Origin: Oligoflexia bacterium
GTDB lineage: Bacteria > Bdellovibrionota > UBA1018
Direction: 5' to 3'
Assembly: GCA_014376785.1 (NCBI GenBank)
Contig: JACMQW010000031.1
Coordinates: forward strand, 1-35,889
DNA: 35,889 bases
Below, piece after piece: positions 15,633-22,947 of the stretch. Each line of letters opens with the position of its first letter. Within the stretch, counting starts at the first letter, position 1. The notes beneath the pieces are model-generated. The model ran no database searches and was not told where the DNA came from. It was given only the letters and a program-made list of their open reading frames with translations. Position numbers and translations under genes: made by a program.

Positions 15633-17120
15633 ATGAAGTTGAAAATCGAAATTGTCGGTTGCCTGGCTCTGATAGCAGTTCTCGTCGGATGTGGAAAATC
15701 ATCCGGCCAAAGCGAAAGGATCGCGCAAGCGATCGTTGAAAAACCAAATTGCGATTCTTTAAGAGATCGCGTGTGGTCTGAGCTTTATCGTCAAATAGAA
15801 ATTTATGGCGCTCTCCCTGAGGCGGAATCTGTTTCTAAAGACCTTAGAGCTTCCGCACTCACCGGTCCTCAAGGTGACGCATTCGCCACACTCTACTCAG
15901 AGGTTGCAGATTCCGTGCGCGGATTAGACAGAGAAAATGCCCTACGGGTTCTTGCCGAAACGGAGTTGGGTGATCGCACCGATGACTTGCGCGGAAATCG
16001 TCAAAATCGAATTGAAAATGCGCTGACGAACGTTAAGTCAGAATCCGTAGCAGTAGCCGGACAGTGCGAAAGTAAAGATGTCGTCATGCCGATGGGCGAA
16101 CAAATCGATCCAGTACCGATGTTTGAAAACTGGCGGCAGCGAGTCGGCTCTATTCTTTACGGTGCCTACAAAACAATCTCCGTCGGATACCAGAGCTGCA
16201 GCGCGCTCGCCGCATCCCAAATTAAAACCGCAACGGCCGCAGTCAGTGGGATCGGTGTAATCGGCACTCATAGTAATGGTGTCGGTTCTGTTCGTACGGT
16301 TTTAAATGCATCGCAAATCTATGCAACTAATCCGTACTATGCTTCCCGCGTTTCCCCGCCTAGTGGCTGTTTTACCGCCACGAAATCACCGATCATTTAT
16401 GATTACGGCGGCAAGCCTTACGCCGCATCGACGCTCGGAGTTCTCGATCTAACGAAGAATGCGGGCTCTGGTGGACCTTCGCTCGGAATTGATTGTTCAG
16501 GTTTCGTTACCAGCGCAGTGATGGCCGGAGGTCTTCGTTTGAAGGCGGGGGTGAGCAGCAAGCCTGCACAAGTCGATGGAGTGAGCGCCTCGATGCTCGC
16601 AAGTCCGGTATCGAATGGCCTTTCCTGTTTTTCTCCACTGACGAGCACCAAGACAGAAGACCTTAAGTCGGGTGACATTGTGGCAAACAACGGGCACGTT
16701 TTTATCATCGACCAGGTAGGAATGGATCCGTTCGGAATCAGAAATGCGAAAACATCTGCAGCTTGCGATGCCATTAGTGCGGCACAGTTCGATTTCTCGA
16801 TCATTCAGAGTAGTGCAAGCAAAGGAGGGATCGGGATGAACCGATTCCGAGGTGCAGATTACCTAGCCAGTACGAGTTCATTTCGAAATGGAATGCTCGC
16901 CTATGCAAAGTCATTCTGTAAGGTTCGGCTAGGATTGAGCGCGGCGGTTACTCTGGCAAATAAAACTTTGGCGGTGATCATTCGGCATAAAGGAACACCG
17001 ACTTGTTTGAACCCAGAACCGATTCCGCTGGTCGGTCAGAGTTGCTTAAAAAGTTGCGGGCCCGTCACCGCTTCCGGCCTTGCAATGAGTCGATCAGAAG
17101 CAGCGGAGTTCAACCTTTAA
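15633..17120 (+). CDS. Lipoprotein with NlpC/P60-like cysteine peptidase domain
   Basis: 495 aa. The signal peptide (MKLKIEIVGCLALIAVLVG) ends in a lipobox with Cys20. The C-terminal half contains an NlpC/P60-like papain-fold core: the nucleophile in GIDCSGFVTSAV (Cys288) and, about 65 residues later, DLKSGDIVANNGHVFIIDQVG with His355. This order and spacing match the catalytic Cys-His pair of cell-wall endopeptidases and amidases that cut peptidoglycan stem peptides. The N-terminal 200 residues are helical and unassigned. No Shine-Dalgarno precedes the ATG. The gene follows the long inverted repeat and ends convergent with add (4-nt overlap). The peptidoglycan role is inferred from the fold. 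Confidence 0.8.
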   Translation: MKLKIEIVGCLALIAVLVGCGKSSGQSERIAQAIVEKPNCDSLRDRVWSELYRQIEIYGALPEAESVSKDLRASALTGPQGDAFATLYSEVADSVRGLDRENALRVLAETELGDRTDDLRGNRQNRIENALTNVKSESVAVAGQCESKDVVMPMGEQIDPVPMFENWRQRVGSILYGAYKTISVGYQSCSALAASQIKTATAAVSGIGVIGTHSNGVGSVRTVLNASQIYATNPYYASRVSPPSGCFTATKSPIIYDYGGKPYAASTLGVLDLTKNAGSGGPSLGIDCSGFVTSAVMAGGLRLKAGVSSKPAQVDGVSASMLASPVSNGLSCFSPLTSTKTEDLKSGDIVANNGHVFIIDQVGMDPFGIRNAKTSAACDAISAAQFDFSIIQSSASKGGIGMNRFRGADYLASTSSFRNGMLAYAKSFCKVRLGLSAAVTLANKTLAVIIRHKGTPTCLNPEPIPLVGQSCLKSCGPVTASGLAMSRSEAAEFNL

Positions 17121-18119: not shown

Positions 18120-18920
18120 TTACATTCCCATCATGTGGGTACCGCTATCGACCATCATCGTCGTTCCGGTGATGTGCTTTCCACCTGGGCCACAGAGGAA
18201 AGCAGCGAGTGCGCCCACATCGGCTTGGTCGATGTTTTCGCGAAGGGGGGTTTTCTCTTCCGACTTGGAAAGCATTTCTCGGAAATTGCGGATTCCCGCA
18301 GCGGCCAACGTTTTCACGGGTCCGGCCGAGATGGCGTTTACACGGATCTTTTTCGGACCCAGATCATTTGCGAGGTACCGCACGGTGGCTTCGAGAGCCG
18401 CCTTCGCGACGCCCATGACGTTGTAATTCTGAACCACGCGGGTAGCGCCAATGTAAGAAAGAGTGACGATGGCTCCGCCTTCGCGAACCCCCTCGATTCG
18501 TTCCATCAACGGTTCTGCCCTCTTTGCGAGGGCCACGAGTGAATAAGCGCTTACGTCCATCGCAAGCAGGAATCCTTCGCGAGACGTGTCCACGAAGCGT
18601 CCTTCCAGGTCTTCGCGGTTTGCGAAGGCTACCGAGTGAATGAGAAAGTCCAGTCCACCGAAAGTATCCTTGATAGAGCGAAAGGCTTGATCCATTTCTG
18701 CTTCGCTTTGAACGTTCATCGGCAGGATTAGTTTTGCTCCGATGCTTTCGGCAAGCGGTCGAACCCGGCGTTCGAGCGATTCGCCGACGTAAGTGAAAGC
18801 AAGCTCACAACCGGCGGCATGCAGATGCTGAGCGATCGCCCAAGCGAGACTCCGCTCATTTGCGACACCGACGATCAAGGCCTTTTTTCCCGCTAACACT
18901 TTTTGAGAGTCCATGCCCAT
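18120..18920 (-). CDS. fabI: Enoyl-ACP reductase (NADH), FabI
   Basis: Last reductive step of fatty-acid elongation: reduces trans-2-enoyl-ACP with NADH. The 266 aa SDR fold has the divergent FabI nucleotide motif (KKALIVGVANERSLAWAIA), VAFANRED after strand 4, and the active site Y156, Y166-x6-K173 (YIGATRVVQNYNVMGVAK). These correspond to E. coli Y146, Y156 and K163 with a constant 10-residue shift. It ends GGKHITGTTMMVDSGTHMMGM. ATG at 18920 or two codons later at 18914; no clear ribosome binding site favours either. It lies 45 nt after the protease-barrel gene on the same strand. Triclosan-type inhibitors act on this family. Confidence 0.96.
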   Translation of the reverse strand: MGMDSQKVLAGKKALIVGVANERSLAWAIAQHLHAAGCELAFTYVGESLERRVRPLAESIGAKLILPMNVQSEAEMDQAFRSIKDTFGGLDFLIHSVAFANREDLEGRFVDTSREGFLLAMDVSAYSLVALAKRAEPLMERIEGVREGGAIVTLSYIGATRVVQNYNVMGVAKAALEATVRYLANDLGPKKIRVNAISAGPVKTLAAAGIRNFREMLSKSEEKTPLRENIDQADVGALAAFLCGPGGKHITGTTMMVDSGTHMMGM

Positions 18921-18965: not shown

Positions 18966-21932
18966 TTAAAAGGGGAGGACAGAGGAAGTCGTCACGGAGA
19001 AGAAAACCTCTCCTTCTCCGAAGGCATTCGTGTTGAACCCCTTTTGGTAATCGACGCCGAAAGTCAGAGGGACATAAAGCAGCGCGTCCACATTCAGCCG
19101 AAGTCCCGCTCCCGCCGAAGGGAGGTGTTGGAACTTTGGAATCGAGTTCGGTCGGTAGGTGTCCTCGGCGAACACTTGCATGTAAAGTTGGTTTAGGAAG
19201 AACGGATTGGTTCCCCATCCCCTGAAAATTTGCGAGATCGGAAATCTCAAGTCGGTGGAGAGTGTGACTGCTTCGCGCGAAGAAAATGAAACGGATGGAT
19301 ATCCCCTGATGCCGAATTCGTCATACTGGTCCGAGTAGAGGGAGTTAATCATCCGGTTCCGTCTTCCGCGTGAAAGAGAGCTTGCTTCAAGGTAGGAAAA
19401 ATCGCGGTAGTTCACCTTCATCGCTTTGATCGTCGGAAATAAAACCGTGTGCCCTCCGAGTTGGAAATACTGGGTGTGCTTGAAAATTCCTTTGTAGATT
19501 TCTTTCGCGTTCGCGCCTAGGTCGTATTGCCTTACGCCTAGGATCGTTTCGCCGCCGCGTTCAGGCGCAACCGAGAGTCGCGACGATCGGGCGTTCGAAT
19601 AGCTCAGCGTGAAATCGGCCTGAGGAATGCGTCGATCCCTTCCGAGGAGTCGCGAAGATCCACCCGGCATGTCGTAATAAGCAGCCTGCTCAATCTTATA
19701 TCCCAAGGTCGGCGTAAAAACGTCGGTCGTGCCTTGAAAAGGAAAACTGAGGGTTCCTCCGATTTCGCGGTCTCGGGTAAAAAAGGCACGACCACCGGCG
19801 GAATTCTTTGCGCTGATCACGTCTTTCGTCAGGTTCGAGGCGTAGAGGGCAAGCGTCGGTCCGAAGCTCCGATTTTCGTATTGGACGGAATAATCGGTTG
19901 TTTTCGCTGTCGAGTCGAAAGCACCTAGGGCGAAATACTGATGCCTGAGTGTGTTGTCATAGCCAAACACCTGGGCACCCAAATAAGTCGTGTTCGAATC
20001 AGAGAGAAAGAACGGAGCCCACTGTCTCGGCCAAAGTGTGGGGAGGATGGAGTAGTTTTTCACTTCGATGGGTAAGGCGTCTGCTTCGGTTTTTTCTTTT
20101 TCATCGGGTGAAAAAGCAGGAGCGTCTTCGCCTACCGCGACACGCACTCGTTCGGGATCGATTCCGTTCGGGAAGGATTCAATTTTGGCGAGTGAGAAGC
20201 CTTCTTTCTTCAATACCGAACCAAAGAGTTCATCTCCTCGGAAAGTCGGCAATGCAATGGCTCCCGTCGTGTTCGTGATGAGGGTTGCCTTGCCAGATTT
20301 TTCGTAGCGGTAAACGTTATCCACTCCCGATCGATCCGAAACGAAGTAGAGAGTTCCGCGTCTATCGAACGTCGGGAAACGATTCCGGTAGGCATCACCC
20401 ATGAGAACGGAGAGGGTGTTTTTTTCAATGTTGTAGTAGTAGAGACCGTCGCTTACTTGGCCTCTTTTTTTCCACGAAAATACAATTCCTTTACCATTCG
20501 GAGTGAATTTTGGATTGGCGACCCTTTCGAATGTTGGGACATTGAAAAGTTTTCTTCGCTCTTCAAGCTGTATCCGTCCGCGGCGCTCGGTAATTTTCGA
20601 GAGAGCGAGATTCGTCGCCGATCCCGAGGCTTCGGTGTAGACGATCCACTTTCCGTCTCGTGAAACATCGGGATCGCGGGCCCGAGCCCCACTCGTGAGC
20701 CAATAGGTGTTTCCAGATCTCGGTTCGAACACTCGGAGATCGCTATAGAAAGTGTAGTGCGCCATGGGCGTGTGCAAAGAAGAATACAACACTCTCTGCC
20801 CATCCGGGGTGAACGAGATGCCGGATCCGGAGAACTTATCTTCGATCGTTGTCGGTTCCGACCCGCTTTTCCATGCGCGGAACCTCAGCGTTTGCCATTC
20901 ATCTTCAGAAACCGTCGAGTAAGCGACGAAATTTCCGTCTGGAGAAAAAGCCATCCCATACGAGTCATCGTGAGTGCCATCGAACGGTTCTATTTTCGAA
21001 ATGGGCTGAGATCGAATCTTCGCGAGCTGCGACTCCATTTTCAGATTCGTCCCGGCGACCCAGTCATCCCACAGAGCATACCAATCTTTTCCCGTCGCTT
21101 TCTCCACATTCCCATTAATGAAGTAAGGAACGCGTTCGCTCCCGCGCTCGGTCATGTCGGAGAGAGCACCTGGCTTGGTTCGTTCCGCCGTGTTCATCAG
21201 TGAATACCCAAAAAGGTAAGCCACTTCTCCCGCAGGAAACCGCGGTCGCTTGCCATTTATTTCATCCAGCGACAGATAATCGGGGCGACCCAGTGCTTTT
21301 TCTTCCACAATCGTGCGAAGCAATCCTTCCCAAAACGGAGATCTTCCGCGCCCTCCGCGCGTGAACTTCGTCTCATTGTAAACTGCGTAACCCTCTAACA
21401 TCCAAGATGGCCAAGTCGAGTTCGGGAGCAACACGTCCCCGAAGATGTAGCGGGCAGCGGAGTAAAATCCCCGTGTTGCGTCCATATTTAAAAAGTGGGT
21501 GTACTCGTGGAATACCAAAAGCTTCAACCAGTCTTCGTAATAATCCGTACTGAAGTAGGGATCGGGAGGCGTCAGATAAAGGAGCATTCCGAATCGTGAA
21601 ATCGGCGTAGTGAGTCCATTCGCTGCGTCCGTGTTATCGATCAGGAGAACGTTCACTCGCGTTCTGGGTTCCCAACGCATGTCGGCCTTCATGGCGCTAT
21701 TTGCTTCTTCGTAGAGTCGGGCAACCGTTTCGGCTTGGGCGGTGATTTCTGCTGGGAAGACGAGGTGGAAATGTTCGGTTTTAATCTCTTTCCAGTTCCA
21801 AAATGGTGAAAGTCCGAGCGCATCTCCCGCACCTGCTCGAGCATCGAGCGGGCTAGCGACGCAGATCGTGGTGAGAAGCGAAATAGTTAAAAAAAAGTTC
21901 CTCGTGATTCGAAACCCTCGGAGCTCATTCAT
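18966..21932 (-). CDS. Outer-membrane protein: gluzincin metalloprotease, beta-propeller and beta-barrel
   Basis: 988 aa. A signal peptide (to about residue 33) is followed by a peptidase domain with zinc motif HEYTH (142-146) and a downstream Glu in WMLEGYAVYNE (E180), the gluzincin arrangement (peptidase MA-like). Next come TolB/WD40-like PD40 repeats at about 320-620 (YGMAFSPDGNFVAYST, GISFTPDGQRVLYSS, DPDVSRDGKWIVYTE, PKFTPNGKGIVFSW). The C-terminal 350 residues look like a surface-antigen/Omp85-type beta-barrel with transmembrane-strand patterns and a terminal Phe (TSSVLPF). I infer a barrel-anchored protease with a propeller docking module, periplasmic or surface-facing. It overlaps ygfZ by 8 nt upstream. 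Substrate is unknown. The architecture is stated from motifs; domain edges are approximate. Confidence 0.82.
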   Translation of the reverse strand: MNELRGFRITRNFFLTISLLTTICVASPLDARAGAGDALGLSPFWNWKEIKTEHFHLVFPAEITAQAETVARLYEEANSAMKADMRWEPRTRVNVLLIDNTDAANGLTTPISRFGMLLYLTPPDPYFSTDYYEDWLKLLVFHEYTHFLNMDATRGFYSAARYIFGDVLLPNSTWPSWMLEGYAVYNETKFTRGGRGRSPFWEGLLRTIVEEKALGRPDYLSLDEINGKRPRFPAGEVAYLFGYSLMNTAERTKPGALSDMTERGSERVPYFINGNVEKATGKDWYALWDDWVAGTNLKMESQLAKIRSQPISKIEPFDGTHDDSYGMAFSPDGNFVAYSTVSEDEWQTLRFRAWKSGSEPTTIEDKFSGSGISFTPDGQRVLYSSLHTPMAHYTFYSDLRVFEPRSGNTYWLTSGARARDPDVSRDGKWIVYTEASGSATNLALSKITERRGRIQLEERRKLFNVPTFERVANPKFTPNGKGIVFSWKKRGQVSDGLYYYNIEKNTLSVLMGDAYRNRFPTFDRRGTLYFVSDRSGVDNVYRYEKSGKATLITNTTGAIALPTFRGDELFGSVLKKEGFSLAKIESFPNGIDPERVRVAVGEDAPAFSPDEKEKTEADALPIEVKNYSILPTLWPRQWAPFFLSDSNTTYLGAQVFGYDNTLRHQYFALGAFDSTAKTTDYSVQYENRSFGPTLALYASNLTKDVISAKNSAGGRAFFTRDREIGGTLSFPFQGTTDVFTPTLGYKIEQAAYYDMPGGSSRLLGRDRRIPQADFTLSYSNARSSRLSVAPERGGETILGVRQYDLGANAKEIYKGIFKHTQYFQLGGHTVLFPTIKAMKVNYRDFSYLEASSLSRGRRNRMINSLYSDQYDEFGIRGYPSVSFSSREAVTLSTDLRFPISQIFRGWGTNPFFLNQLYMQVFAEDTYRPNSIPKFQHLPSAGAGLRLNVDALLYVPLTFGVDYQKGFNTNAFGEGEVFFSVTTSSVLPF

Positions 21933-22830
21933 AATCGGCGATCCTCTCGATCAAAGCATTCAGCTGCGGTTGATTAGATTGATCGATCTTCAACTCTTTG
22001 CCCACTTGAAGGACATTCTTTCTCAACAGTGTCAGCGCGGAGAAGCCTCCGTTCGGTGATGAGATGACGCTCGAGAGCACTCCGACCTCGATTCCCTCCG
22101 GGGAAAGAACTTTCGCTCCGGGTTCGGGAATCGCACCTTTTTCTCCGTACAAAAGGGTGAGCCTCTTCGCGGGTGATCCAAGAGAGATGATTTTCTCGAT
22201 GACTTCTTGCCCGGGGTAGCAGCCTTTGTTGTCGGCAATTCCCTTCCTCATTCCAATTTCCAAGGGATTGGAGTCGAATAATAATTCACAGTTCACTTTA
22301 GGCGTCAGGTTCAGAATGCGATCTCTTTCGAGCTCTTCGGGCAGTGAGTTTTCAGCGTGAGAAGTTCGGATAAATTTTTCTAAGTCGACATCTGTTCCCC
22401 ACGCACTTAACCAGGGTTTGCCGTAAGAGGACTTTTCACCGGAGAAGAGTAGCACGTTTTCTCGCTCGACGAAGTGGTTTTCGGGAACGATGTCCAAACC
22501 GAAAATCCATACATTCTTCAAATCCGATTTCGCGTTCAGCTCTACTTTTTCTGAAAACGTCATTTCGTCGAGTACGCGTACAAATTCGTCTCTCCATTTG
22601 GATTCCGAACCTCCGTCGATTTCGATCCAAAAGGAGTCTTCCGATACACAGGCGAGTCGAAACGACGCCCGAATTTTCCCCTGCGCGGAAAGCAAAAAGC
22701 CGGGTTTGAAGTCACCTGGGTCCATGTTCCGAACATCCAGAGTGGCGATGCGGTGGAGGAGGTCTCGCGCGTCGCGGCCACGAAATTCGAAAATAAAAGT
22801 ACTCAGGGCGAAAGTCACGCTAGGGGTCAT
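21925..22830 (-). CDS. ygfZ: YgfZ/GcvT-like folate-binding protein (Fe-S cluster factor)
   Basis: Tetrahydrofolate-dependent protein that helps assemble or repair some [4Fe-4S] enzymes (such as MiaB). It carries the diagnostic KGCYPGQEV motif with Cys204, in a GcvT-like fold (FRGRDARDLLHRIATLDVRN, LLSAQGKIRASFRL). I set the start at ATG 22830 (301 aa), which has AAGGA 8 nt upstream; a TTG at 22875 would add 15 residues unlike the family. Two radical-SAM or Fe-S enzymes elsewhere, such as KamA, might benefit, but this is only inference. First gene of the ygfZ-protease-fabI-add cluster, divergent from the yhaM-like gene. Confidence 0.92.
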   Translation of the reverse strand: MTPSVTFALSTFIFEFRGRDARDLLHRIATLDVRNMDPGDFKPGFLLSAQGKIRASFRLACVSEDSFWIEIDGGSESKWRDEFVRVLDEMTFSEKVELNAKSDLKNVWIFGLDIVPENHFVERENVLLFSGEKSSYGKPWLSAWGTDVDLEKFIRTSHAENSLPEELERDRILNLTPKVNCELLFDSNPLEIGMRKGIADNKGCYPGQEVIEKIISLGSPAKRLTLLYGEKGAIPEPGAKVLSPEGIEVGVLSSVISSPNGGFSALTLLRKNVLQVGKELKIDQSNQPQLNALIERIADYE

Positions 22831-22947
22831 GGGAGAGGTCCTTCCATAAAAATCTATATCAGGCGGACGTTCCAAGAAAGCGATGTTCCGAAGGAACGGC
22901 CATCGATAGTCGCGCTTTCCGGATCATTTTCGTGATAGTTTGAACCC

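Follow-up and report, generated by a model that had tools for sequence, protein, structure and literature searches.

Fusions of a TolB-like propeller with an Omp85 barrel were named WD40-Omp85 by Heinz and Lithgow in 2014, and were likened to a fusion of BamA and BamB (PMC4104836). In the main text of that paper a gluzincin domain is absent and the word 'peptidase' gives 0 matches; the Omp85 'Metallo' subfamily presented there, called metalloprotease-Omp85, carries PF00149 (PMC4104836). POTRA domains are usual in the Omp85 superfamily but are not universal, as the noNterm and WD40 types are without them, and the fusion protein described here is also without them. PF00149 is the calcineurin-like metallophosphoesterase family and not a gluzincin family. 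Two further systems place a hydrolase at an Omp85 barrel. The patatin domain of PlpD was shown to be periplasmic, contrary to an earlier secretion model (PMC11116518), and BepA of E. coli, a zinc peptidase of the periplasm, acts at BAM on LptD, which it either promotes or degrades (PMC8423444).

The window, i.e. the whole stretch of 35,889 nucleotides that was analysed, belongs to contig JACMQW010000031.1 of an Oligoflexia bacterium of the phylum Bdellovibrionota. It carries a gene with an ATG start codon whose product, as judged by alignment and structure prediction, joins a gluzincin peptidase, a TolB-like propeller and an Omp85 barrel in this order, with an intact active-site signature, the Omp85 loop-6 motif and conservation among relatives (Table 1). 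The original prediction, made from the window alone, had described a barrel-tethered protease with its own propeller, and had proposed structure prediction and a search of other genomes as checks. Both supported it as an architecture. The full-length AlphaFold2 (AF2) model, built without ligand on an alignment of 27 sequences (pLDDT 85, pTM 0.85), contained the gluzincin domain, the propeller and the barrel in one chain, and the three-part order was recovered across several phyla. The HEYTH motif from residue 142, the PD40 repeats and the terminal Phe listed in the prediction were all borne out by the sequence and by profile search, and its 8-nt overlap with ygfZ was present as ATGAATGA. Phe is also the terminal residue in 14 of 27 close relatives.

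Table 1. Features of the fusion gene and its neighbours (positions refer to the window, residues to the fusion protein).
Feature	Position	Strand	Basis and remarks
Fusion gene: gluzincin peptidase, TolB-like propeller, Omp85 barrel	18966..21932	-	988 aa; ORF list, homologue alignment and AF2
N-terminal export signal, residues 1-33	21834..21932	-	Hydrophobic; low confidence in AF2 model
Gluzincin-fold metallopeptidase domain, residues 34-310	21003..21833	-	AF2 of domain alone: pLDDT 82, pTM 0.83
HEYTH zinc-binding/catalytic motif, H142-H146	21495..21509	-	H, E, H invariant: 27/27 close, 28/28 distant (biased, see text)
E180, third zinc ligand candidate in WPSWMLEG	21393..21395	-	38 residues after H142; invariant: 27/27 close, 28/28 distant
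TolB/PD40-type beta-propeller, residues 314-600	20133..20993	-	TIGR02800, E=1.1e-15; AF2
Outer-membrane barrel of Omp85 type with 16 strands, residues 635-988, not preceded by POTRA	18969..20030	-	AF2, fold matches, Pfam in homologues
Loop 6, residues 841-886, with Omp85 motif IRGYP	19275..19412	-	Between strands 11 and 12; model and alignments
R876-G877-Y878, Omp85 loop-6 RGY	19299..19307	-	R: 26/27 close, 28/28 distant; G: 27/27 close, 27/28 distant
ygfZ-like gene	21925..22875	-	Overlaps start of fusion gene by 8 nt; neighbour in close relatives only
fabI	18120..18920	-	45 bp downstream of fusion gene, same strand; neighbour in a minority of relatives

The 50 best PDB fold matches of the peptidase domain were all gluzincins, from the families M1 (aminopeptidases), M61 and M9 (collagenases), and their TM-scores were approximately 0.5. 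On the evidence of the model, this resemblance is one of fold and not of family. No Pfam metallopeptidase model matched the window protein at E<=1, and it matched none of the family sequence models M1, M61, M9 and M48. Among the homologues, weak Pfam matches to M9 were obtained in 4 of 27 close sequences, and Peptidase_MA_2 and M61 were matched, also weakly, by 2 and 1, respectively, of the 28 members of the distant set. H142, E143, H146 and E180 did not vary in the alignment of the 27 full-length close sequences, nor among the 28 distant-set members, for which the conservation of HExxH is biased because the locus search behind this set used that motif. From the invariant HExxH and the Glu 38 residues further on, the peptidase part is predicted to be probably active, with zinc as its putative ligand. 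A GRGRS motif (residues 194-198; window 21339-21353, minus strand) follows just past the catalytic Glu. It was invariant in the group to which the window protein belongs, its R195 was invariant even among distant homologues, and it is a possible candidate for a substrate-binding element.

For the propeller, TolB structures were recovered in both profile and fold searches, and the TolB model was matched by the propeller in 27 of the 28 distant-set members. The window protein scored 57.5 bits against a TolB equivalog cut-off of 343, which was therefore not reached, and it shared low identity with E. coli TolB over the part that was aligned. A true TolB is encoded on another contig of the same genome. 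Replacement of TolB by the propeller was ruled out because a separate TolB gene was present in nearly all of the relatives searched.

In the AF2 model the barrel comprised 16 strands spanning residues 635-982, and residues 600-635 formed a short linker with one helix, without a POTRA domain. A fold search of the PDB with the whole model placed TamA and BamA structures among its 50 best matches. R876-G877-Y878, in the long loop 6, agrees with the superfamily pattern (V/I)RG(F/Y). Position 923, in an FxDxG-like strand motif, was acidic (D or E) in all 28 members of the distant set and in 26 of 27 close members; R876 and this acid are the loop-6 arginine and acidic partner known from BamA and FhaC. 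Aligned distant homologues displayed the motif series LRGYP, LEYRFPL and FxDxG. Pfam Omp85 (PF01103) matched 7 of the 28 distant-set homologues (best E-value 1.8e-10), the cut-off of this model was exceeded at the C-terminus of one homologue (L074), and NCBIfam BamA/Omp85 models matched some distant-set homologues. The window protein itself gave no Pfam Omp85 match at E<=1. With hhalign, the family barrel matched BamA from the same order weakly (E 6e-4, probability 28%) and in a plausible register, and matched a sister family with an E-value of 5e-5 and with RGY kept in register. An earlier profile comparison with a poor and incomplete BamA set had found nothing. A further sister family (L141-L144) contains the same three parts, i.e. 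a peptidase with HEMVH or HEMIH, a propeller and an Omp85 barrel, with RYLYL at its end, and it is recognised by Pfam Omp85 more readily than the window protein is.

Sequence motifs and the model together assign the barrel to the Omp85 superfamily, without POTRA. A barrel had been guessed in the original prediction, in which a C-terminal part of another kind was named as grounds for refutation; the 16 strands were found, and the barrel could be typed as Omp85 by these strands, the loop-6 motif, the fold matches and the Pfam matches of homologues. The Omp85 identity, which the original prediction had not noted, is the point most important for the mechanism.

The three-part order was observed in Bdellovibrionota, in Spirochaetota including Leptospiraceae, in the unclassified UASB270, and in a Myxococcota MAG and a Halanaerobiaceae MAG, and homologues from Saganbacteria and WOR-3 were matched across nearly their whole length; several of these taxon labels derive from metagenome bins. 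The homologues from the Myxococcota and Halanaerobiaceae MAGs had no RGY at the usual place. In a search of the phylum, approximately 150 of 291 genomes (hand count) gave E-values below 1e-40, although TolB is mixed into this result and the weaker matches were for the most part judged to be TolB or fragments. The fusion protein was kept at full length across the order of the window organism, and the family is widely conserved.

Linkage to ygfZ was observed in 38 loci, all from close relatives, and in 0 distant loci. In a FastTree tree, a fully supported branch separated all 32 ygfZ-linked proteins, the window protein included, from the pal-linked ones. The house-keeping co-expression with ygfZ and fabI that was originally suggested comes down to a gene order of the lineage of the window alone. 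The order is absent from distant loci, and for this reason a functional link to these two genes was dropped. Outside the group of the window, a paralogue adjoins pal in 17 loci, divergent in nearly all of them (L072, L073, L078, L081, L092, L094, L100, L106, L107, L109, L182-L185 and L188-L190). A small DUF4398-type lipoprotein gene and a cpoB-like TPR gene come next in these loci, and tsaD and rsmA genes are also present. The adjacency to pal and cpoB hints at outer-membrane or Tol-Pal work for the paralogous group. The genome of the window keeps the pal cluster without a paralogue between ssb and pal (L181, G000:C42, 3001-4130), and two genomes of the same genus (L182, L184) retain it there. 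A third, divergent paralogue from the same genus (L187, G001:C15) kept HExxH and had no RGY near its C-terminus. Downstream of the fusion gene, a gene for approximately 500 aa recurs in 12 Spirochaetota loci (L074, L077, L079, L083, L085, L088, L091, L095, L096, L099, L102 and L105). Near the locus in the window, a putative lipoprotein of 495 aa is encoded at 15633-17120 on the plus strand, with a weak match to NlpC/P60 (E 0.14).

Taken as a whole, these observations are best explained by a POTRA-less Omp85 protein whose anchored metallopeptidase faces the periplasm and whose propeller serves as a dock for clients or partners, a reading which we hold to be rather probable. The protein would be exported by Sec and its barrel would be inserted by BAM. 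An even number of barrel strands implies a periplasmic N-terminus, so the N-terminal domains would be left in the periplasm. A lipobox replaces the ordinary export signal in a few relatives, convincingly so at the N-terminus of 4 named relatives, and fits such a topology. Because of the even strand number, the PlpD precedent and the lipobox relatives, the peptidase may be placed at the inner face of the outer membrane. Clients or envelope partners would dock on the propeller in the periplasm, and the zinc peptidase would cleave the docked clients, and might in this way control the quality of outer-membrane proteins or lipoproteins or bring about their maturation; this choice of substrate is conjectural. 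Against this explanation, the window protein has no Pfam Omp85 or metallopeptidase match, the profile match of the family barrel to BamA is weak, and the linkage to pal is that of the paralogous group and not of the window's own group.

Several other readings were weighed. A pseudo-enzyme or a misassembled ORF, with parts joined by chance or a dead peptidase, has in its favour only that the window protein scores weakly in Pfam. Such an origin is barely credible, given the invariant active-site signature and a whole-genome search, the unbiased support for conservation, in which 55 of 58 relatives gave a match, mostly at full length in one open frame. As these relatives match and the catalytic residues never vary, the fusion is a real conserved gene, and chance fusion or a frameshift artefact was ruled out by this conservation. 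Alternatively, the Omp85 barrel could carry the propeller and the peptidase out to the cell surface for a proteolytic attack on external substrates. Omp85/TpsB relatives such as FhaC do translocate proteins, this was the initial idea for PlpD, and the window comes from a phylum that includes predators. Secretion is nevertheless distinctly improbable, as the PlpD enzyme domain was later located in the periplasm, some relatives bear a lipobox, and the distribution of the homologues, in Spirochaetota (with Leptospiraceae), WOR-3, Saganbacteria and others, does not track predation. On that distribution a predation-specific role was ruled out, and the predatory or surface-active role considered in the original prediction found no support.

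The matches of the propeller to TolB in nearly all of the distant set, together with the paralogues beside pal and their DUF4398-type and cpoB-like neighbours, might point to an accessory of Tol-Pal, in which the propeller would bind Pal or a Pal-like lipoprotein and the peptidase would act at contacts between the outer membrane and peptidoglycan, for example during constriction. This is unlikely, as the group of the window protein is linked to ygfZ and not to pal, its genome encodes canonical TolB as a separate gene elsewhere, and its identity to E. coli TolB is low over the aligned stretch. An outer-membrane insertase, assembling other barrels as BamA does and using the peptidase as a proofreading part, would agree with the strict conservation of the loop-6 RGY and its partner acid and with the resemblance of the propeller-barrel fusion to BamA plus BamB, as noted for WD40-Omp85. 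We consider this improbable, as the barrel is without a POTRA domain and the same genome separately encodes BamA and another POTRA-type Omp85 protein. We give equally little weight to a single-chain assembly and quality-control machine, in which an active insertase-type barrel, a BamB/TolB-like dock and a BepA-like protease would be combined in two paralogous lines, one of them tied to pal.

The anchored periplasmic peptidase that we prefer may be compared with the described systems. Like PlpD, in which the hydrolase domain is periplasmic, the fusion protein carries a hydrolase domain on an Omp85 barrel, but PlpD has a patatin lipase and POTRA where the fusion protein has a metallopeptidase and a propeller; a patatin domain and POTRA were both absent from the window protein in Pfam and AF2 analyses. 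As with BepA and BamA/BamB, a predicted zinc peptidase of the gluzincin class is found at an Omp85 barrel having a propeller partner. E. coli uses separate chains, and BepA consists of M48 and TPR parts, whereas the fold of the fusion peptidase is nearest to M1, M61 and M9; the BepA parallel is an analogy in function, and M48 membership is not claimed. TolB shares the propeller type and paralogues of the fusion adjoin pal, but the genome has a TolB gene of its own at another place.

The propeller, most similar to that of TolB, lies directly before the Omp85 barrel, as in WD40-Omp85 proteins. Compared with the main text of the 2014 paper, the present family is likely to be a member of WD40-Omp85 that bears an additional enzyme domain, one that seems not to have been reported. 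The original statement that the parts usually occur separately was only partly right: propeller-Omp85 fusions had been described in 2014 (PMC4104836), and the three-part order spans several phyla. The architecture is striking, but probably lies inside a subfamily already named. A characterised homologue of the same order, named in the original prediction as grounds for refutation, was looked for in the open-access literature, and no such homologue, no experiment on any member and no report of the combination was found there.

Omp85 proteins assemble the outer membrane and maintain it, and the family is a natural single-chain test of the coupling between proteolysis and assembly. It adds an apparently active enzyme to a subfamily which had been presented only as a fusion resembling BamA-BamB. 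Knowledge of envelope maintenance is scant in Bdellovibrionota and Spirochaetota, and the fusion may account for part of this process there.
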